A DNA stretch of 35,950 bases, taken from contig JASJBX010000008.1 of the NCBI GenBank assembly GCA_030066295.1, positions 1-35,950 of the forward strand. Direction: 5' to 3'. Position numbers and translations under genes: made by a program. This DNA is from Crocosphaera sp. Its GTDB lineage: Bacteria; Cyanobacteriota; Cyanobacteriia; Cyanobacteriales; Microcystaceae. The notes beneath the pieces were generated by a model. The model was given only the letters and a program-made list of their open reading frames with translations, searched no databases and was not told the origin of the DNA. Each line of letters starts with the position of its first letter. Positions within the stretch are counted from its first letter, which is position 1. Below, one piece after another: positions 21,094-31,881 of the stretch.

Positions 21094-21123
21094 CCCCATC
21101 TAAATCACAGATTATAGATGGGG
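21094..21123. repeat. IS605-type end hairpin next to the tnpB stop
   Basis: CCCCATCTA pairs with TAGATGGGG around a 12-base loop. The tnpB stop (TGA) lies inside it at 21105-21107, so this is the right-end hairpin and the probable 3' part of the guide (omega) RNA. Confidence 0.8.
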
Positions 21124-22541
21124 TACAGCTTGCACCCAGAAAGTTTTAGACTTCTGAGTGTCTCCAGGGTTACTGGTGTCCGCAGTGTATTTGTAGAACT
21201 TTGGCTAACAAATACCCTAGAGAAATACTTATCACCAATTAAGACAGAATACCAATATCTTGCTCCGATATTATATGAGGCTCCTAAATCAGCATTATAT
21301 TGTTTACCAGACGGAAAAGTACACAAAGAATAATTGTTTTTACTGCGTTTTACTTTCCCACTGCCATCAAAAGCATAAGCACTGGTATATTTAGGGTTAA
21401 TTGTTTGCACATCTCCCCCTAATTCTGCCCATCGGTCACTTAAAATCTCTACAATTTTTTGATGACACCATAAATGAAACTTTTGTCTCATTAAAGTGCC
21501 TTTTTTTCCTGCCTTAGCTTTCCATCCTGCTAAGTTTTCGATGACGATTACTTTGACATTATGAAGTTTAGCAAACTCAATAATTTCTCTCGAAATATAC
21601 CGAGAAATTTCTAAATTAATGTTACTTGATTTCCGATAAAGTCCTCGACAAAAGCCTTTAACAAACTTTTCTCCTGTCTTTCTATGAGTCTGTTTTGACT
21701 TTTTAGTAATCATCATCTTACGTTTATTTCGACGGTCTATGTCTCTAGCCGGATTGATAAATTTCCGAGCCTTTACAGTACCGTTCCGTCCGACAATCGA
21801 ACAGGTAGCAGCATTATTAATGCCTAAATCTACGGAACAAACATAATCTGAATCCTCCTTTTTTATCGGTTTAATTTTCACTGGCATTGAAAGCTGACAA
21901 GTCTTAGAATTAACCACTAAAGCTGGTGATTTCATTTGGTTCCCTATCACTTTATGTCGATTAAGTCCATGACCTTTAACTGTAATTTCTTCTAACCAAA
22001 CCCAATCAAAACCATTCCAAACTTTGAGAGAAACTTTTTGATAATCATCATTATATTTTACTTGTTGACCTTTATATAAGGCGGGATAAGATTGACACAT
22101 AGCTGTTAAGCGAGGCGGTCTAACTTTTCTATTTTTTCTTATCCCTGATTGCCACTCTCTGTAACGAGTTTGAAAACTAGAAACAATACCAATAGCATCG
22201 GCGATAGCTGCTCTTCTTAAATAACTAGGAAACTTGCGAAACGATGGATATTTATTAATAACTTTTTGACAATATGAATATTTAGGAATTGTATTTTTGC
22301 TAGTTGCATGAATAGATTTTTCTAGATAATTGACTTTCTCTTTATCGGTTAAATTCCCAATTAACTTCCATTCAGCATTAACAATAAAAACTAAAGGTTT
22401 TAGGAATCTTCTATATTCTTTTACTGTCAACAATAATAACGTTTTCTCTATAGATGTTACCTGGAGTTTCCAGACATCCGTACGGATCATGGAGTCCGAT
22501 TTTCTCTTTTTAGTTTTACGTTTGGTTTTAGACCTACCCAT
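21105..22541 (-). CDS. tnpB: TnpB, RNA-guided nuclease/transposon-associated protein
   Basis: A 478-residue OrfB/TnpB protein. It has the three RuvC acids: Asp in SVDLGINNAAT (about residue 240), Glu in VIVIENLAGWK (about 332-342) and Asp in YNADLGASYNIGARY (about 425). TnpB is a programmable DNA nuclease guided by a noncoding RNA from the element's right end and helps the element persist. The usual C-terminal zinc ribbon (CxxC...CxxC) is not formed here: after NPKYTSAYAF the first Cys pair is absent and only one Cys (SLCTF) remains. The gene overlaps the end hairpin. Confidence 0.88.
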   Translation of the reverse strand: MGRSKTKRKTKKRKSDSMIRTDVWKLQVTSIEKTLLLLTVKEYRRFLKPLVFIVNAEWKLIGNLTDKEKVNYLEKSIHATSKNTIPKYSYCQKVINKYPSFRKFPSYLRRAAIADAIGIVSSFQTRYREWQSGIRKNRKVRPPRLTAMCQSYPALYKGQQVKYNDDYQKVSLKVWNGFDWVWLEEITVKGHGLNRHKVIGNQMKSPALVVNSKTCQLSMPVKIKPIKKEDSDYVCSVDLGINNAATCSIVGRNGTVKARKFINPARDIDRRNKRKMMITKKSKQTHRKTGEKFVKGFCRGLYRKSSNINLEISRYISREIIEFAKLHNVKVIVIENLAGWKAKAGKKGTLMRQKFHLWCHQKIVEILSDRWAELGGDVQTINPKYTSAYAFDGSGKVKRSKNNYSLCTFPSGKQYNADLGASYNIGARYWYSVLIGDKYFSRVFVSQSSTNTLRTPVTLETLRSLKLSGCKLYPIYNL

Positions 22542-22866: not shown

Positions 22867-22896
22867 CCCCATCTAAATTAAAAATTTTAGATGGGG
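22867..22896. repeat. IS605-type end hairpin, distal end
   Basis: CCCCATCTAAA pairs with TTTAGATGGGG around a short A/T loop. It shares the stem of the hairpin at 21094-21123. A start codon here is possible in the dehydrogenase frame (22891) but is part of the hairpin and unlikely to be used. Confidence 0.8.
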
Positions 22897-22986
22897 ACTG
22901 CGCGAAACGATTTTGTTCAATCAAAAAATCTACAACACCACCATCAAACGAATGGTAAAATTGAGGCAGTTAGTCATGAATTTCTA

Positions 22987-23865
22987 ATGAATATTGAAAA
23001 AGTATTAATTCTTGGTTTAAATGGTGGATTTGGTCAATTATTCTCAAATTTGCTTTCAGAAGAAGCCATGACGATCTATGGTATTGACTTAGCCTCACAA
23101 CCAGATAGCTTAACTAGCTGTTCAAATTATCTGTGCTGCGATCTTAATCAACCTAACAAGCAGGCATTTGCCTTAGCTAGAGAGGTTGATTTATTGCTTA
23201 TCTGTCTTCCTGAAAGTGTAGCCTTTAGTGCATTAGAACATTTTGTTCCAGTCATACCTACGAATGGACTTGTGGTGGACACTTTATCAGTCAAAACTCC
23301 AATAGAAGAAAAAATGGCAAATTTTAGGCTAGATGTACAAATACTGAGTATTAATCCTATGTTTGCTCCAGACCTGGGATTTTGTCAAAATAACGTTACT
23401 GCTATAGACTTACAGCCTGGTTTGCGCTCTGCTAATTTTATTAATCTGATGAGAAAATGGGGGGCTAATGTGACGATCATGACTGCAAGTGAACATGATC
23501 GCTACACTGCTATAACCCAAGTTTTGACCCACGCGGCTATTATTGCTTTTGGACTTTGTTTAACAAAGCTTGATGTTGAAACCGACAAATTATTATCGGT
23601 TTCAACACCAGTGCATCGAACAATGCTTAAACTCTTAGCTCGTATTACGAGCCAACACCCTGACATTTACTGGAGAATTCAGTTAGATAATCCATACGGG
23701 AAACAGATGCGAGAAGCATTACTCAACAGTTTGAAGCAATTAGACTTACTAGCTGATGTCAAGGCTCAACAAGAATTTTGTCGCATACTATCTACTAATC
23801 AAGAAACGCTTTCACCATTTTTAGATGAATTAGTGACTGATTTCTCAGATTTATTCAAATCTTGA
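22987..23865 (+). CDS. Prephenate dehydrogenase homologue, likely PapC-type
   Basis: The protein (292 residues from the ATG at 22987) has a Rossmann fold (VLILGLNGGFGQLFSNLL), an NAD-binding acidic end (IYGIDLA), and TyrA-like motifs such as VVDTLSVKTP and the His-containing SINPMFAPDLG. An ITQVLTHA segment replaces the usual ITH.L helix. In the 4-aminophenylalanine route, PapC oxidatively decarboxylates 4-amino-4-deoxyprephenate. In primary metabolism TyrA acts on prephenate. I favour PapC because of its neighbours, while similarity alone cannot exclude TyrA. I reject a longer start at 22891 because it lies in the IS hairpin. The gene converges with the mutase, and their 3' ends overlap by 67 bp. 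Confidence 0.75.
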   Translation: MNIEKVLILGLNGGFGQLFSNLLSEEAMTIYGIDLASQPDSLTSCSNYLCCDLNQPNKQAFALAREVDLLLICLPESVAFSALEHFVPVIPTNGLVVDTLSVKTPIEEKMANFRLDVQILSINPMFAPDLGFCQNNVTAIDLQPGLRSANFINLMRKWGANVTIMTASEHDRYTAITQVLTHAAIIAFGLCLTKLDVETDKLLSVSTPVHRTMLKLLARITSQHPDIYWRIQLDNPYGKQMREALLNSLKQLDLLADVKAQQEFCRILSTNQETLSPFLDELVTDFSDLFKS

Positions 23866-24131
23866 AATAGCTGGTCTTCAATCTGACAAGTTTCAAAAAT
23901 GATGCGCTCATAAAGTTCATAGAAGAAGTTTGGATTAATTCCATATTTTTCTCCAAGCCTTGCACATCTTTCTTGTACGGCTTTGACTCGCGCTGGTTGC
24001 ATTACTGGTATTCCCATCTTTTTTTTATATATTGCTACTTGTTTACAAATAGCGAAACGTCGAACTAATACTTGAACGAGTGTTTCGTCAAGACGATCAA
24101 TCTCCTGTCTATAATCTTTGAGATCCTTCAT
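23799..24131 (-). CDS. Chorismate-mutase-family protein, likely PapB-type
   Basis: A 110-residue AroQ-type helical protein with Arg8, Arg25 and Lys36 of the usual active site (E. coli Arg11, Arg28, Lys39). At the positions of E. coli Asp48 and Glu52 it has Gln45 and Val49, in MQPARV, where ordinary chorismate mutases read D-x-x-R-E. Such changes suit a substrate other than chorismate. In the 4-aminophenylalanine pathway PapB rearranges 4-amino-4-deoxychorismate. ATG start with GGAG nine bases upstream. It is the last gene of the minus-strand operon and overlaps papC at its end. An isochorismate-pyruvate lyase is a less likely alternative. Confidence 0.75.
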   Translation of the reverse strand: MKDLKDYRQEIDRLDETLVQVLVRRFAICKQVAIYKKKMGIPVMQPARVKAVQERCARLGEKYGINPNFFYELYERIIFETCQIEDQLFQDLNKSEKSVTNSSKNGESVS

Positions 24132-24165: not shown

Positions 24166-25272
24166 CTAAATTGACGGTATTTTAGTTGTGTGTTTTGAGT
24201 ACATTCTTTGAAGAGTTGCTGTTAAGTTTGGTTTTTGTAACTCTCGTCCAAAAAAGTTGGAAATCGTAGACATTTCCTCTACTAATCGTTTAAACCGCTC
24301 CAAGGTTAGTGATTGAGGTCCGTCAGATAAAGCTTTAGCTGGATTAGGATGAACCTCAATCATTAAGGAATCTACTCCAGCTGCGATCGCAGCCATAGCC
24401 ATAGCAGGAACATACTCAGCCTTACCAGTCCCATGACTAGGATCGACCATAATTGGTAAATGAGTTAAAGAGCGCAATACTGGCACAGCACTTAGATCTA
24501 GTGTATTTCTTGTATATTGTCTGTCAAAGGTGCGAATTCCTCGCTCACATAGAATCACGTTAGGATTTCCTGCTGCCAAAACATACTCAGCAGCCATAAG
24601 TAAATCTTCTATGGTTGCGGACATACCTCGTTTTAGCAACACTGCTTTTTTTTGAGATCCTACTCGTTTTAGAAGAGAAAAGTTTTGCATATTGCGAGCA
24701 CCGATTTGAAGAATATCAGCGACTTCAACAACTTTCTCAACATCTTCTGTATCCATCACTTCAGTCACAATACCTAAACCGGTAGCCTGACGAGCAGACG
24801 CTAACCAATCTAAAGCACTCTCCCCATATCCTTGGAAGCTATAAGGAGAAGTACGAGGCTTATAGGCACCACCTCGTAAAAACTGGACTCCCATGTTCTT
24901 AAGATGTTTTGCTGTTTCGACAATCATTTCCTCGCTTTCGACCGAACACGGTCCAGCGATTAGATGTAAAGGACAATGATGACCAAAAACAGCAACTCCA
25001 TTTCCTGTCGATACTATTACTTCACTCGATTTTCCATTGCGGAATTCTATGCTAGCCCGTTTAAAAGGATGAGTGATTCGCTTAACCCTTTCAATAAAAG
25101 GACTAATTTGGTAAATTTGTGAAGGTTCAACCAATGCCGTATCACCAATCAGGCCAAAGACGACTTTAGAGGAGCCTACACTTTTTTCTGGTCTTAAATT
25201 TCGCTTGTGAAATTCTTCGTTTATTCGCTGAATTTCTTGCTCTGGTGTTCCAGATTTTAAAACGATAATCAT
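24166..25272 (-). CDS. 3-deoxy-7-phosphoheptulonate (DAHP) synthase, class I-beta
   Basis: Condenses PEP and erythrose-4-phosphate as the entry step of the shikimate pathway. The 368-residue protein has an N-terminal ferredoxin-like (FL) domain (about residues 1-70) and a TIM-barrel with LIAGPCSVESEEM (about 106-118), GGAYKPRTSPYSFQG (about 136-150), ARNMQNF, LLKRGM and VDPSHGTGKAEYV. The FL domain is the allosteric module of I-beta enzymes, so feedback by an aromatic end product is possible. A pathway-local copy increases precursor supply for the cluster. It lies 34 bp before the mutase gene on the same strand and 80 bp after the methyltransferase. Confidence 0.92.
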   Translation of the reverse strand: MIIVLKSGTPEQEIQRINEEFHKRNLRPEKSVGSSKVVFGLIGDTALVEPSQIYQISPFIERVKRITHPFKRASIEFRNGKSSEVIVSTGNGVAVFGHHCPLHLIAGPCSVESEEMIVETAKHLKNMGVQFLRGGAYKPRTSPYSFQGYGESALDWLASARQATGLGIVTEVMDTEDVEKVVEVADILQIGARNMQNFSLLKRVGSQKKAVLLKRGMSATIEDLLMAAEYVLAAGNPNVILCERGIRTFDRQYTRNTLDLSAVPVLRSLTHLPIMVDPSHGTGKAEYVPAMAMAAIAAGVDSLMIEVHPNPAKALSDGPQSLTLERFKRLVEEMSTISNFFGRELQKPNLTATLQRMYSKHTTKIPSI

Positions 25273-25352: not shown

Positions 25353-26177
25353 TTAAGGTTTTTCCCCATAAGCCATTAGCCATAGTAACAAGACCAAAGA
25401 GTCTGGCATCGACAAAAACTCATGGTTAGCACGGAGATAGTTTTGCATTTCTTCTTCCGTTGCCCAACCTTTTTTGACAACTGATGAAAAAAGTTCAGGA
25501 TCGATTACTTGTGTAAATATTTCCATTCCTTGATCGTCACTATGAGAAACAATAATCTCCAACTCGGGATTTTGGAAACCAGCATCTCTAAGAATGCGCC
25601 ATAATTGTCTTCCTATACGTCGGTTACCGTTGCGCGTAGCCATCCCTCGGCGCATTTTTTCTGACATCATCTGGTACTCTGGGAGTGGAGGTTCATGAAT
25701 AAAAAAGATTTCATCATCATGATCAGTAATGACAAGTTTGCCACCAGGTTTGAGAACTCGTCGAATTTCCTTAGCAGCATCAACTGGATTAGGAATATGT
25801 TGAAAAATTAAGCGTGCAATCGCAAAATCAAAGCTGTTATCAGGCAAACCGGTATCAAAGATAGAGGCTGTCGATACTGTCAGTCTGTTACCTAGATAAT
25901 TATCTAGACGTTGTTGGCAATAATTAATCAAAACTGGATCAATATCCAGAGCCGTTATCGAACTGTTAGGGAATAAAGACAGAAGCTTCTCGGTAATAAA
26001 TCCAGGTCCGCTTCCTAATTCAAGAACAGACATTCCATCTTGTAAACCAAACCAACGTAGGTTCCGTGACTCCTGTTTCCACATGATTTCCGCTTGCAAA
26101 TATAAACGCTTAATTTCACGCTCTAAGTTACTATTAAAATCATTGGCCTCATAAGAAACTGTACTGGTGATAGTCAT
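25353..26177 (-). CDS. SAM-dependent methyltransferase, class I
   Basis: The protein (274 residues from the ATG at 26177, with AGGAG six bases upstream) has the SAM motif VLELGSGPGFITEKLL (about residues 52-67), an acidic end to strand 2 (ALDIDP), motif-III-like SFDFAIARLIFQHI and the post-motif VLKPGGKLVITD. An upstream TTG gives two more residues and is unlikely. The substrate is not evident. In this cluster an N-methyl (as PapM on 4-aminophenylalanine), O-methyl (hydroxylamine or carboxylate) or ring methyl are all possible. The gene is separated from the N-oxygenase by 116 bp containing a strong hairpin. Confidence 0.85.
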   Translation of the reverse strand: MTITSTVSYEANDFNSNLEREIKRLYLQAEIMWKQESRNLRWFGLQDGMSVLELGSGPGFITEKLLSLFPNSSITALDIDPVLINYCQQRLDNYLGNRLTVSTASIFDTGLPDNSFDFAIARLIFQHIPNPVDAAKEIRRVLKPGGKLVITDHDDEIFFIHEPPLPEYQMMSEKMRRGMATRNGNRRIGRQLWRILRDAGFQNPELEIIVSHSDDQGMEIFTQVIDPELFSSVVKKGWATEEEMQNYLRANHEFLSMPDSLVLLLWLMAYGEKP

Positions 26178-26256
26178 GATCAACTCCTGAATTTTTAAAC
26201 TAAACTAAACTGGAAAATTTTTTCCTTAATGTCACCTATTCATTAACTAATTATCT

Positions 26257-26293: not shown

Positions 26294-27244
26294 TTATACA
26301 AGAAATCCGTAATCTTCAAAAGCTTTCTTGACAGAAGAAATTGAAAACAAACCAGACTCTTTAAACATTTTCAGTGCAGGTTGAGCTGCCCGTTTTGTAG
26401 TCTGTGTAATTTTTTCGGGAACATAAATTTCTTGTAAAATACCCTCAGAATTGACCGCCGAAAAACCTAAATTCTGAAGAACATTACGAGCAGCAATCTG
26501 ATTAGGTTCAAGAAAAGTTCGCATCAATCTTGGCAAAAATTGACCCATTTTTTCTTGTTCTAGATTGCTGAGACTATTCCAAAGTAAAGGAAATAGACTG
26601 AAAAAGTAAGTATAATGTTTAGCCTCATCAGCAATATGATCCCCAATAACAGTACGGACAGCTGGTGCTATTCTTTGATCTTGAGGAATTGAGCTATAAG
26701 CTCTTACGTACAATGTTTCAATGACATTAGTTAGAAACAGCTTAATCAAGTTAGGTGAAAGAGAATCTTCAGCATCAAGAAGTTTTTGGAAATTTAACTC
26801 AAACTGGGGCTGTCCCAAGACGCTATGACTTAGTCCACAATAGTTTTCTACTTGTTGTAAAAACCATTTCATAAAAAGAGAATGGCCTCCTTCATCGCAA
26901 TAAATTTTTAGAAGATCAAATCTTTGTTCTTCGGTTAACTTAATAATTGTTTTTCCTTGAAATAAATCGCTACAAACAGGATTAACATAATTGAGTTCAA
27001 CCAAAGAGGTAAACTGAAGATGTTCGAGAAGTCTATAGGCTAGGGCAGCCTCATAAAGGGCGGGATCTTTCGAGATTTCTGGGTGTGAAGCTAGTGGAGT
27101 TAACTCGGGACTAAAAAGTAATCCAGAAAAAGATAACTCCCGTAGTGGTTTACTTCGAATCCAACTTGATTTATCCCAGTTTTTAAAAGGACTGTCATAG
27201 GTTTTCTGAGATGTAGAAGTCACTGAGTTAGCCATGAAATTCAT
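26294..27244 (-). CDS. AurF-family diiron N-oxygenase
   Basis: Predicted to oxidise an arylamine to hydroxylamine, nitroso and nitro forms, as AurF does for 4-aminobenzoate and CmlI does in chloramphenicol. The 316-residue protein has all seven metal ligands at positions that track AurF with constant offsets: Glu83, Glu118 and His121 (DEGGH), Glu176 (NVIETLYV), His203, Glu207 and His210 (HIADEAKH). The spacing is the same as in AurF (Glu101, Glu136, His139, Glu196, His223, Glu227, His230). ATG start with AAGGAG seven bases upstream. The substrate is unknown, but the neighbouring 4-amino-aromatic pathway makes a para-amino compound the natural candidate. Confidence 0.87.
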   Translation of the reverse strand: MNFMANSVTSTSQKTYDSPFKNWDKSSWIRSKPLRELSFSGLLFSPELTPLASHPEISKDPALYEAALAYRLLEHLQFTSLVELNYVNPVCSDLFQGKTIIKLTEEQRFDLLKIYCDEGGHSLFMKWFLQQVENYCGLSHSVLGQPQFELNFQKLLDAEDSLSPNLIKLFLTNVIETLYVRAYSSIPQDQRIAPAVRTVIGDHIADEAKHYTYFFSLFPLLWNSLSNLEQEKMGQFLPRLMRTFLEPNQIAARNVLQNLGFSAVNSEGILQEIYVPEKITQTTKRAAQPALKMFKESGLFSISSVKKAFEDYGFLV

Positions 27245-27453: not shown

Positions 27454-29610
27454 CTATTTAACTTTCTCTTTAACTTTAACGGCAGGTTTAACTTGTAGAG
27501 CGTCAACAATATGATAGAGATCAGGGTTAACCTCTCCATGAACTGTGAGTAAAATAGCGCGAATTAAAGCCTGTGCCTTCAGCAGTATTTCATCAAATTC
27601 CATCTGAGGATCAGATAGAGCAACAATGGCTCCTCCTACGCCGATAGTCGTTTCAGTTGGAGTCATTACAATTGTGCGGATTACAATGTTCAAATCGGCT
27701 GCACCATTGAGTCCTAGAAACCCAATTGCCCCCGAGTAAATACCCCGTGCCTCTCCTTCAAGTTTGTCAATAATTTCCATCGTTCTCAGTTTGGGAGCAC
27801 CTGTCATTGAGCCACCAGGGAACGCCATGCGGATACAGTCAATCGCTCTCATATCTTGACGAAGGCGACCGCAAATAGTGCTGACTAATTGATGTACGGT
27901 GGCATACGTTTCGACATTCATTAATTTCGGGACATCAACGCTACCTATTTCACAGACTGGTCCTAAATCATTTCGCAGCAGATCAACAATCATTAAGTTC
28001 TCAGCGCGATCTTTCTCTCCATTTTTTAAGCTTTCTTGAATTTCTCTATCTGCTTGAGCATTTACTCCTCGTGCTTTTGTTCCTTTAATTGGTTTGGATT
28101 CAACATAATTATGGCGATCAATTTTGAGAAAACGCTCTGGAGAGGAACTAAGCACCACGAAATCTTTAAATCGGAAAAATGCTGAGTAAGGTGCTGGATT
28201 AGTTTGGCGTAATGTTCGATAAAGTGTTACAGGATCGGGTTGACTATCGGTAGAAATCTTATTCGTTAAACAGACTTCATAACTTTCTCCTTGAGAAATT
28301 TCGTAGAGACAATTTTGGATATCATCTAAGTATGTTTCATAGGAGCGACTAAAGCGAAAAGTGACAGGTTTCTGACTCTTTTTCGGAGTAGGTGGTTGTA
28401 AAGGAGGTAATGTAGACAGTTGTTTTTCTACTGTTTGGAACCAAGCCTCAGCCTCCCCTTTTTGCCCCTTTTTCGTTAGACACAACAAATAAGTTGTCTG
28501 TTCTTGGTGATCGAATACAATTAAGCGATCGGCTAAAATAAAGCTAGCATCAGGCAACGATGAAGGATTCTTCAATGTGCTTCCACATTCTGCCTTGAGT
28601 TCATAACCGAAGTAACCAGCAAAACCACAATTAAAGTCAAAAGGGAGATCATCACAACGATAGTTAAGCAGCTCAATTTCTCGCTTGAGATAGTCAAATA
28701 TACTCTCCTTGTACACATTCAACTGGTTCCCTTGGGTCACAGATACCTCTTGAGTCCGAACATCATATTGAACTAAGCGACTGTTTACACCGCTACCGTC
28801 TCCCATAAAAGAGAAACGGGAAAGACTTGGATCAGCCAAACTGCTGTCGAGCCAGAAAGCAAGGGACTCGTCTTTAAATAGATGAACAAATACTTGTTCC
28901 GTATCTGGATAAATATTTAGTTGACGACTATGAACTTCATAACTTTGATTATGGAATTGATGAAGATGACCGCTGGGAACAATAGATAATTTTTGACCTA
29001 TCGTATTTTGACCTCTCTTTTTTTGGGGAGAATATTGTTTAGTAATATCCCTGAAGTTTTCTAGCAACGTATATCCATACTCGGTACTAATCGATTCAGG
29101 GTGGAACTGCACACCCCAAATCGGTCTGGAGCGATGACGTAATCCCATAATAATTCCATTTTGTGTCCAAGCAGTTGCTTCTAGACTTTCAGGTAGTGCG
29201 GGAGAAACCACCAACGAATGATACCGAACAACAGAGAAGTCTTGAGGAATCCCTGCAAATAGTTTGGATTCGTTATGATAAACTCTACTTAAGCGTCCAT
29301 GCATGACTTCAGGAGCATAGCTAACCTTGCCTCCAAAGATATGACCAATTCCTTGATGACCTAGGCAGACACCTAGCAAGGGAACATCTATTTCTTCAAT
29401 AACTTTTTGACAAATTCCAAAATCTTTTGGATTTTCCGGACGACCTGGACCTGGGGAAATTACGACATTATCAAATGATAAAGCTTGTAGTTCAGACCAG
29501 GTTAATTGATCATTGCGTATGACAATTGGAGGTTCTCCATTCACCTGTGCAATCATTTGATACAGATTGAAAGTGTAAGAATCGTAGTTATCGATTAGTA
29601 AAGTTTTCAT
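27454..29610 (-). CDS. Aminodeoxychorismate synthase, PabA-PabB fusion (PapA-type)
   Basis: The amidotransferase half (about residues 1-190) has Cys82 in GVCLGHQ, then His170 and Glu172 in QFHPES. The chorismate-binding half (about 215-690) contains PIKGT at 507-511, where Lys509 marks PabB-type aminodeoxychorismate synthases; anthranilate synthases have PIAGT. The product is 4-amino-4-deoxychorismate. A lyase would take this to 4-aminobenzoate, but the cluster instead has a mutase and dehydrogenase. I chose the ATG giving MKTLLIDNYDSYTFN, the normal PabA beginning, over a TTG 24 bp upstream. No pabC-like lyase is visible, so diversion to 4-aminophenylalanine is expected. 54 bp separate it from the ammonia-lyase. 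Confidence 0.92.
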   Translation of the reverse strand: MKTLLIDNYDSYTFNLYQMIAQVNGEPPIVIRNDQLTWSELQALSFDNVVISPGPGRPENPKDFGICQKVIEEIDVPLLGVCLGHQGIGHIFGGKVSYAPEVMHGRLSRVYHNESKLFAGIPQDFSVVRYHSLVVSPALPESLEATAWTQNGIIMGLRHRSRPIWGVQFHPESISTEYGYTLLENFRDITKQYSPQKKRGQNTIGQKLSIVPSGHLHQFHNQSYEVHSRQLNIYPDTEQVFVHLFKDESLAFWLDSSLADPSLSRFSFMGDGSGVNSRLVQYDVRTQEVSVTQGNQLNVYKESIFDYLKREIELLNYRCDDLPFDFNCGFAGYFGYELKAECGSTLKNPSSLPDASFILADRLIVFDHQEQTTYLLCLTKKGQKGEAEAWFQTVEKQLSTLPPLQPPTPKKSQKPVTFRFSRSYETYLDDIQNCLYEISQGESYEVCLTNKISTDSQPDPVTLYRTLRQTNPAPYSAFFRFKDFVVLSSSPERFLKIDRHNYVESKPIKGTKARGVNAQADREIQESLKNGEKDRAENLMIVDLLRNDLGPVCEIGSVDVPKLMNVETYATVHQLVSTICGRLRQDMRAIDCIRMAFPGGSMTGAPKLRTMEIIDKLEGEARGIYSGAIGFLGLNGAADLNIVIRTIVMTPTETTIGVGGAIVALSDPQMEFDEILLKAQALIRAILLTVHGEVNPDLYHIVDALQVKPAVKVKEKVK

Positions 29611-29664
29611 CGTTAATACCATCTCAAAAATCAACGGATAATTAAATTCAGTCAGTTTCAGTGA

Positions 29665-31359
29665 TTAATAAAGATTGCTAACTGCTTGCCAGAGGCGATT
29701 ACTACTCTTTAAGTCAGTTGCAATTTGAGCTATGTGTTCATCAATAGCTTGCTCATCATCATTCCAAATATAGGGACGTTCTGAAGAAGGCTCCTTGCCA
29801 ATGACCTCGTGGATCTCTAGATATAGCTTTAACGTTTCTGGGGAAAGGCTTTGACGAGCGTCATAATGACCCATTAAGGCATAAGTACGTAGGTCAACCG
29901 CTTGTACACCAAAGAGTAACGCGATCGCTATGTACTGCTGAAAAATTTCTATTGAGCGGTTGGCTAAAAGAGCAGAAATACACCCTTGACTGTTGATATT
30001 TTGATTAAATTGTTCAGCATGGGTAGGAAAGCGATCAGCCAGGCTATTTCCATAAAAAGTTAGCAATGGCATGATTGAGTTTCCAGTCAATTGCAATGAC
30101 TTTAATCCTAAATTGACCAAACGTTTAGGATTCCCAACCAATGATGCCGGAAGTCCCTCGTTAAATTCTGGGGTGACTAGAAGTGCAATTTGTGTATCTA
30201 AATGTTTAGCTAAAAGACCGAGATAGTACCTTAGTTGATCCATCCCTAGAGCAACATATTGTCCAAGAAAATTCCCTCCGTGATAAGAAGCTTGATTTTC
30301 AACATCAATTAAAGGGTTATCAGTTGCAGAGTTCATCTCAATCTCAATTTGTTTTGCAATCTGCAAAATTCCGTCAAAAATAGGCCCTATATACTGTGGT
30401 AAACAACGCAGAGAATAGCGATCTTGAATTAAGTTATTACTTCGATAGTCATGAGAACCATTCAATTCATCACGAATTAATTGTGATCCTCTGAGTAACT
30501 TTAACATCTGGTTAGCTGCCCATTTTTGTCCATCATGGGGTTTTAACTGATGAATGAAAGGATGAAATGATTGATTGGTCCCACTCAAACCTTGAATCAT
30601 TAAGGCGTGTGCTGCCATGGTTAAAGTTAATAAAATTTTAGCGTCGTACACACAATTCGCAGCAACGCCAGTCATGATCGAAGTCCCGTTCATCATGGCT
30701 AAGCCTTCTTTCGGTAACAATGTCACTGGCTCTAAACCAAGATATTTTAAAGCCTGCGGAGCTTCCATTGCTTCTCCGTTGAAGTCAACCATATAACAAG
30801 GCTCTGTCATCCCAATTAATGCGCCTGTTATATAAGACAATGGAACTAAATCACCGCTAGCACCAATAGAGCCAAATTCATAGACATAGGGTGTAACCCC
30901 TGCATTCAGAAAAGTCAAAAGGCGTTGAATAATTTCAACTCGTATGCCAGATGCTCCGTGCATATGTGAATTGGCACGCAACAGCATTGCTGCTCTTATA
31001 CAAGCATTGGGTAAGCGTTGTCCTGCGGCAACCCTATGGTATCTAATCAGATTATTCTGTAAAGCAGTAGCCTCTTCAGGTGGAATGATAACATCAGCCA
31101 TACCCCCAAAGGCGGTCGTGACTCCATAAATTGGCTGGCCTAATTTTACACAATCAGCAATAAAGTCACTGGATGCTTGAATACTTTGCAAAATCTCTTC
31201 TTGTTCAGTTAAGCGGACTTTTGTCCCATAACGTGCAACACTAATAACTTCGTCAATTGTTAAATTACAGTTTCCTACAATTAGCTGTTTATGATGATTT
31301 TTGACAGATTGTTGCCAATCGTTTTCCTGTGATTTGTCAATGTTAGTAACTTGTACCAT
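29665..31359 (-). CDS. MIO-type aromatic amino acid ammonia-lyase, substrate altered
   Basis: The 564-residue protein aligns gaplessly by sight with Anabaena variabilis PAL, including the MIO-forming Ala-Ser-Gly at 167-169 (SIGASGDLVPLSY) and the catalytic Tyr78 (PIYGVTTAFGG). The two residues that set substrate choice in PAL, Phe107-Leu108, are Tyr107-His108 here (NLIRYHRV). Standard PAL would make cinnamate, but the swap suggests a different ring, probably 4-aminophenylalanine given the neighbours. An aminomutase is possible, because the same family includes those. It is the first gene of the minus-strand operon, next to the A-tract repeats. Confidence 0.88.
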   Translation of the reverse strand: MVQVTNIDKSQENDWQQSVKNHHKQLIVGNCNLTIDEVISVARYGTKVRLTEQEEILQSIQASSDFIADCVKLGQPIYGVTTAFGGMADVIIPPEEATALQNNLIRYHRVAAGQRLPNACIRAAMLLRANSHMHGASGIRVEIIQRLLTFLNAGVTPYVYEFGSIGASGDLVPLSYITGALIGMTEPCYMVDFNGEAMEAPQALKYLGLEPVTLLPKEGLAMMNGTSIMTGVAANCVYDAKILLTLTMAAHALMIQGLSGTNQSFHPFIHQLKPHDGQKWAANQMLKLLRGSQLIRDELNGSHDYRSNNLIQDRYSLRCLPQYIGPIFDGILQIAKQIEIEMNSATDNPLIDVENQASYHGGNFLGQYVALGMDQLRYYLGLLAKHLDTQIALLVTPEFNEGLPASLVGNPKRLVNLGLKSLQLTGNSIMPLLTFYGNSLADRFPTHAEQFNQNINSQGCISALLANRSIEIFQQYIAIALLFGVQAVDLRTYALMGHYDARQSLSPETLKLYLEIHEVIGKEPSSERPYIWNDDEQAIDEHIAQIATDLKSSNRLWQAVSNLY

Positions 31360-31881
31360 GATGTTAATCTTTTTATTTTCAGATTGAGCATTGCACTCAA
31401 TTTCGTTAATGAGTGTTAACTGATAACAATCTAATATTTTTAATTCTTATTGGGTAGTGAAATTAAGGAAGTTTTAAAAAAAGTTTTAAAAAAAAGTTTA
31501 AAAAAAGTTTAAAAAAAAGTTTAAAAAAAGTTAAATGAATTTCAGTTCGATTCAGAAACTTTTCCTACGGATGAGCATCAATTTAGTAACAGTCTCTTCT
31601 TTAAATTAACTATACATTTTCACATTCTACACAATCTAAATTTAGGAATTTAAGGATTAACTTAAGAAATAAAGGGAAACTGATATTACAATTTTTTCTA
31701 AAACCTAAACCACGTCCAATTAGTAATTATGAACTACCCCTATTATCACTGATTGATTATTTTGTTTGGGTTTGATTTTTTAGTTAATTTTACCCATTTT
31801 CTTAGCAATTTTTGATGATCTAATGCTAAGTTTCAAGGTTTACTGAGGAATACTAAGAGTAAGACTAATTGAGTTTACAAC
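31360..31881. promoter_or_regulatory. Divergent promoter region with A-tract repeats
   Basis: No gene is visible in these 522 bases. They must hold the promoters of the cluster (minus strand) and of the sugar transferase (plus strand). The most notable content is the run of A-tract repeats at 31471-31529. Confidence 0.5.
31471..31529. repeat. Five tandem A-tract units, 11-13 bp
   Basis: The stretch reads as five units of GTTT(T) plus seven or eight A residues. The unit lengths are 12, 13, 11, 12 and 11 bp, near the helical repeat. Such phased A-tracts normally bend DNA, and simple A runs of this kind also vary in length by slippage. It lies 112 bp upstream of the ammonia-lyase start. Confidence 0.8.

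Follow-up and report, generated by a model that had tools for sequence, protein, structure and literature searches.

Gene content of the locus

The DNA that we analyzed (the window; 35,950 nucleotides of a Crocosphaera contig) contains a cluster of seven genes. One of these encodes a 564-amino acid MIO-dependent aromatic amino acid ammonia-lyase (29665..31359, minus strand; PF00221, 500.8 bits). On the same strand, 3' of the lyase gene, are, in order, genes for a fused aminodeoxychorismate (ADC) synthase of the PabAB/PapA type (27454..29634; TIGR00553 pabB plus a GATase domain), an AurF-family diiron oxygenase that is a probable arylamine N-oxygenase (26294..27244; PF11583, 72.6 bits), a SAM-dependent methyltransferase (25353..26183; PF13847/PF08241), a dedicated DAHP synthase (24166..25272; NF009933, 622.9 bits) and a chorismate-mutase-like protein of 110 amino acids that resembles the aminodeoxychorismate mutase PapB (23799..24131; PF01817 and TIGR01803). 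A TyrA-family gene on the plus strand (22891..23865), whose product resembles the aminodeoxyprephenate dehydrogenase PapC, converges on the papB-like gene, and the 3' ends of the two overlap by 67 bp (23799-23865).

A metagenome-assembled genome (MAG) of Symploca sp. SIO3C6 also contains these seven genes, with their order and orientation conserved. The proteins are 72-85% identical, the flanking regions are unrelated to those in the window, and the two genomes belong to different families. Values of dN/dS between the two clusters are 0.13-0.33, showing that purifying selection acts on each of the seven genes. Among the genomes sampled, the seven-gene unit was seen only in these two. Neighbors of PabAB, AurF-like or PapB-like type were found at none of the 79 other named lyase loci (in a set consisting of the best 80 of 142), and a search of 389 genomes gave one close relative of the PapC-like protein. 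Because the Crocosphaera genome has a second DAHP synthase elsewhere (69% identical), as well as other chorismate-binding enzymes, the copies in the cluster look dedicated. The methyltransferase has only generic matches, with no informative close relative; compared with a methyltransferase beside a Streptomyces diiron oxygenase, it is 26% identical over 129 residues, which is not convincing kinship.

Most cyanobacterial relatives of the lyase, 60-73% identical to it, are encoded in clusters of the furanolide type, like those of the tyrosine lyase CybB and the cinnamate-forming MacB (PMC13288894). Like the window, furanolide clusters include a DAHP synthase, but they also include a CoA ligase, a TPP enzyme and a KASIII-like gene, none of which was found among the window's open reading frames or in the Symploca cluster locus. 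The DAHP synthase tree has too little resolution to trace this gene, along with the lyase gene, to a furanolide cluster.

Several other features of the locus were observed. A-rich direct repeats (gtttaaaaaaa units; 31474-31535) precede the lyase gene, where its promoter presumably lies. In the Symploca cluster, the papB-like and papC-like genes also overlap, by about 100 bp. A TnpB-type transposon-like protein is encoded next to the papC-like gene (21105-22541, minus strand) and is a possible sign of mobility. The segment 5795-10207 resembles a peptide export system, with genes for a peptidase-like ABC transporter and, next, an HlyD-like protein.

Genes for a para-amino precursor

The original prediction placed the lyase in a cluster that makes para-amino aromatics. 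This assignment is upheld, and the gene set is more complete than could be seen at that stage. The ADC synthase scores 368.1 bits with TIGR00553 (cut-off, 328.4), and the mutase narrowly passes the cut-off of TIGR01803 (74.4 versus 73.35 bits), a family that we take to include PapB. The mutase is 34-40% identical to mutases from two actinobacterial plasmids, whose genes adjoin homologues of pabB and papC, and close PapC relatives on plasmids adjoin pabB and a chorismate mutase gene. In the window's dehydrogenase, Asn replaces the otherwise invariant catalytic His197 of TyrA; the same Asn is present in two plasmid PapC homologues, whereas a cyanobacterial prephenate-dehydrogenase-like protein has His. 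PapC proteins are reported to be characterized by the loss of this histidine (PMC1173090). Judged by these sequence features, the proposal is supported that the cluster encodes all dedicated steps from chorismate to 4-aminophenylpyruvate, plus a DAHP synthase for supply.

The cluster has no aminotransferase gene, so we assume that a housekeeping enzyme makes 4-aminophenylalanine; in engineered E. coli, a housekeeping aminotransferase served for this step (PMC4863162). The combination of ADC synthase, PapB, PapC and an AurF-fold N-oxygenase for para-amino aromatics is also found in the papABC/cmlI (chloramphenicol) and azoC (azoxymycin) pathways (PMC4863162, PMC6783550). Unlike these pathways, the window's cluster has no adjoining PKS or NRPS gene. 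Moreover, neither pathway is known to include an MIO lyase. With a lyase that takes a para-amino substrate, the cluster would represent a novel variation on known papABC/AurF-type pathways.

A probable arylamine N-oxygenase

A phmmer comparison of the AurF-like protein with PDB sequences gave no real match, and its kinship is visible in the fold alone. In a fold comparison of its AlphaFold2 model (pLDDT 89.8) with the PDB, CmlI and AurF were the sole matches at E<0.001. The seven diiron ligands (E83, E118, H121, E176, H203, E207 and H210) are invariant in 11 aligned proteins. Their spacing is close to that reported for DnfA/AurF, and DnfA is described as having the same ligand motif as AurF and CmlI (PMC9478400). 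Judged by its family, ligands and modeled fold, the protein is probably an arylamine N-oxygenase.

The gene neighborhoods of its homologues are divided. The closest ones outside the cluster are cyanobacterial and 42-52% identical, and where examined, their genes adjoin one for a glutamine amidotransferase. Such pairs recall dnfA/dnfC of direct ammonia oxidation, in which DnfA oxidizes hydroxylamine, and not an arylamine cluster. One Streptomyces homologue is encoded beside pabB and DAHP synthase genes, near a PKS, and this neighborhood speaks for arylamines as substrates in some members of the family. On a plasmid of Nostoc sp. C057 (L214, 14974-16866), as at three other cyanobacterial loci (L215, L217 and L220), an AurF-family gene is directly beside a gene for a PRK07053-type glutamine amidotransferase; these arrangements are like dnfA/dnfC, but without an adjacent dnfB.

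Active-site residues of the lyase

The lyase has the PF00221 domain, the Ala167-Ser168-Gly169 triad that forms MIO (30853..30861, minus strand, by alignment with AvPAL) and Tyr78, all of which characterize the MIO lyase class. Among solved structures, AvPAL (2nyn) and the PAL of Nostoc punctiforme are nearest to it, and it is the sole lyase detected in its genome. The original prediction described a gap-free alignment with AvPAL as far as the MIO triad, with Tyr78, residues 107-108 and residues 167-169 numbered identically. Our phmmer alignment agrees from residue 20 onward; the first indel, of one residue, lies past MIO at about residue 185. The difference at the selectivity pair was also correctly described: the minus-strand codons at 31036..31041, which fall inside the predicted segment 31026-31051, specify Tyr107 (31041-31039) and His108 (31038-31036) in place of Phe107-Leu108 of AvPAL. 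This pair is not a sequencing accident, because it is also present in the nearest relative (the Symploca MAG, 85% identical) and in about half of 80 named relatives.

Although catalytic residues and numbering are alike in the two enzymes, the pockets differ. Of the residues that we take to form the AvPAL pocket, the window's lyase keeps all except the 107-108 pair and Ile423, which presumably lines the para side of the substrate ring. The latter is replaced by Leu424 (30088..30090, minus strand), a position at which nearly all relatives have Ile. Of 178 near-invariant sites, just four are altered in both the window's and the Symploca lyase (K109R, G111A, R467N and L539I), and the first two of these, encoded within 31027..31035 (codons of Arg109 to Ala111, minus strand), adjoin the selectivity pair. 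From these comparisons, K109R and G111A are candidate specializing changes, as is, less exclusively, I424L. Among 47 cyanobacterial lyases, I424L is exclusive to the para-amino cluster. Exclusivity was rejected in a wider set, in which one Herpetosiphon aurantiacus lyase also has Leu.

Distribution and meaning of the Tyr-His pair

A lyase was detectable in 59 of the 389 genomes from the order to which the window belongs. Among 53 aligned proteins, the pair at 107-108 is Tyr-His in 27 and Phe-Leu in 22, and Phe-His, His-Leu, Leu-Met and Ser-Asp each occur once. We also compared 80 AvPAL-like bacterial loci from named genomes. In this set, Tyr-His occurs 40 times, Phe-Leu 29 times, Phe-His five times, Pro-His twice and other pairs once each, although Tyr-His is possibly over-represented, because a Tyr-His query was used to rank 142 candidates by similarity and the 80 top-scoring ones make up the set. 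Tyr-His is thus the commonest pair in the AvPAL-like bacterial lyases sampled, both in the best 80 of 142 and in the 53-protein sample. The earlier view that Tyr-His fits no known class does not survive these counts, nor the presence of the pair in both AvPAL-like lyases of H. aurantiacus. In the 53-protein sample, no further position distinguishes Tyr-His from Phe-Leu proteins at a threshold of 80%.

The neighborhoods of cyanobacterial lyases include a CoA ligase in 45 of 52 cases, a KASIII-like enzyme in 31 and a TPP enzyme in 20, and the genes of most relatives are in furanolide (cyanobacterin/maculalactone-type) clusters that lack para-amino genes. A phylogeny of Tyr-His lyases had been suggested as a check. 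In our tree, well-supported branches carry at least five changes of the Tyr-His label. For example, among Okeania lyases that are 92-93% identical, one has Tyr-His (L171) and two have Phe-Leu (L175 and L177), with both residues swapped together. Two Moorena lyases that are 98.7% identical have Phe-His (L155) and Tyr-His (L156). AvPAL-like lyases from Chloroflexota, Desulfobacteraceae and Acidobacteriales (L157, L181, L183 and L189) have Leu-His, Pro-His or Ala-His, along with changes at position 83.

The H. aurantiacus genome encodes three MIO lyases. Two are AvPAL-like, have Tyr-His and are about 65-66% identical to the window's lyase; the third (L193) is histidase-like, with Ser-His and with Glu at the position of AvPAL Gln452. 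HaTAL1 from this organism is a specific tyrosine ammonia-lyase that formed 4-coumarate, with cinnamate below 0.002 mM (PMC10360455). HaTAL1 must be one of the two Tyr-His lyases, unless the histidase-like, Glu-bearing protein is meant. At positions 107-108, the window's lyase fits this Tyr-His type of tyrosine ammonia-lyase, and one of the two H. aurantiacus enzymes also shares Leu at 424. However, the H. aurantiacus genes are near a CoA-ligase homologue, whereas the window's gene is among para-amino genes.

Since Tyr-His is found in H. aurantiacus lyases that include a specific tyrosine ammonia-lyase, the pocket appears to be set for a polar para substituent. The pair is a tyrosine-type setting, not a para-amino signature: it gives no evidence of para-amino specificity, because it is the commonest pair, occurs in the H. 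aurantiacus lyases and is found mostly in furanolide clusters without para-amino genes. The idea that Tyr-His is unique to, or diagnostic of, a para-amino substrate was rejected in light of this wide occurrence.

Furanolide clusters themselves bear on the meaning of the pair. CybB deaminates tyrosine, and the maculalactone cluster prefers cinnamoyl-CoA (PMC13288894). Phe-Leu is found at a locus with a maculalactone-type gene set that includes a tyrosinase (L065), and Tyr-His at a furanolide-type locus (L124) that, like cyb, encodes a flavin-dependent halogenase. By analogy with the substrates of CybB and MacB, the two loci provide consistent support, short of proof, for a Tyr/Phe rule. Tyr-His/Phe-Leu is therefore likely to be a natural switch between tyrosine and phenylalanine that has flipped repeatedly in furanolide-cluster lyases, and the pair offers a usable rule for forecasting the products of these enzymes.

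Possible function of the cluster lyase

We believe, with a probability of somewhat less than 0.6, that a lyase of the AvPAL/bacterial tyrosine ammonia-lyase family with a tyrosine-type pair was recruited into a para-amino pathway, in which it deaminates 4-aminophenylalanine to 4-aminocinnamate, which is then N-oxidized. A housekeeping aminotransferase would convert 4-aminophenylpyruvate into 4-aminophenylalanine; the lyase would eliminate ammonia, with His108 holding the para-amino group as tyrosine ammonia-lyases hold the para-hydroxyl; the diiron enzyme would then turn the amine on the ring into a nitroso or nitro group; and the methyltransferase may cap the product. The simplest account is that a tyrosine-type lyase was adopted with little retuning, because an amine is similar to a phenol hydroxyl in size and hydrogen bonding. 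The seven-gene unit, the PabB and PapB scores, the Asn of PapC, the AurF fold, Tyr-His, the lack of furanolide genes and K109R/G111A support this reading. Against it, the most suggestive pocket change (I424L) also occurs in an H. aurantiacus lyase, the closest outside relatives of the AurF-like protein adjoin glutamine amidotransferase genes and not an arylamine cluster, and the cluster was found in two instances only among the genomes sampled. Set against those of relatives, the pair at 107-108 is unremarkable; the interesting part of the locus is the surrounding cluster.

A tyrosine ammonia-lyase pocket may simply still use tyrosine. The enzyme would then make 4-coumarate, and the para-amino product of the cluster would be a separate compound to which 4-coumarate is attached or alongside which it is used. 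The Tyr-His pair in lyases of the genome that encodes HaTAL1 (PMC10360455) favors this alternative, as do pocket residues that match the family except at 107-108 and 423. We nevertheless consider it rather unlikely, since the cluster lacks a CoA ligase or other coumarate-using gene, which most Tyr-His relatives have, a full PapABC set alongside supplies another amino acid, and the changes beside the pair are common to both cluster enzymes. The presence of an AurF/CmlI-fold enzyme also means that the lyase could act after N-oxidation, converting 4-nitro- or 4-hydroxylaminophenylalanine into nitro- or hydroxylaminocinnamate, and MIO lyases generally tolerate electron-poor rings. This order of steps is improbable in our estimation: a nitro group would suit a hydrophobic Phe-Leu pair and would not need a polar one, and Tyr-His seems better matched to an amine or hydroxyl, so action before N-oxidation is more likely.

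The original prediction allowed for either a 4-aminophenylalanine ammonia-lyase or an aminomutase. The former is still the best reading, but the latter has gained no positive support. An aminomutase would give beta-4-aminophenylalanine or beta-tyrosine, and the lyase does share its fold and cofactor with MIO aminomutases. However, NCBIfam aminomutase models match it below threshold (268-313 bits versus cut-offs of 501-1250), and the proteins nearest to it are AvPAL and lyases from clusters with a CoA ligase, which makes this activity very unlikely. We regard as equally far-fetched a phenylalanine lyase or histidase located beside para-amino genes by chance. AvPAL is the closest solved relative, and His108 aligns with the His of the histidase Ser-His pair; yet the pair is not the hydrophobic Phe-Leu, and the enzyme has Gln453 at the position of AvPAL Gln452, which is Glu in histidases (PMC3992019), together with Tyr-His instead of Ser-His. 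Co-location in two genomes with unrelated flanks also argues against chance.

Recruitment of a tyrosine-type lyase to deaminate 4-aminophenylalanine has a parallel in metabolic engineering. 4-Aminocinnamate is a polyimide monomer that has been called non-natural and was made by combining PapABC with a PAL (PMC4863162), the same reaction sequence as proposed here. That combination is artificial, whereas the genes in the window are clustered in nature. A bolder statement, to which we give even odds, is that the enzyme is a dedicated natural 4-aminophenylalanine ammonia-lyase derived from a cyanobacterial tyrosine-type lyase, within a stand-alone path to 4-aminocinnamate and its N-oxidized (nitro or azoxy) and methylated derivatives in two unrelated cyanobacteria. 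If so, 4-aminocinnamate already has a natural enzyme and a compact natural route, and an N-oxidized cinnamate not described so far is predicted from the cluster.
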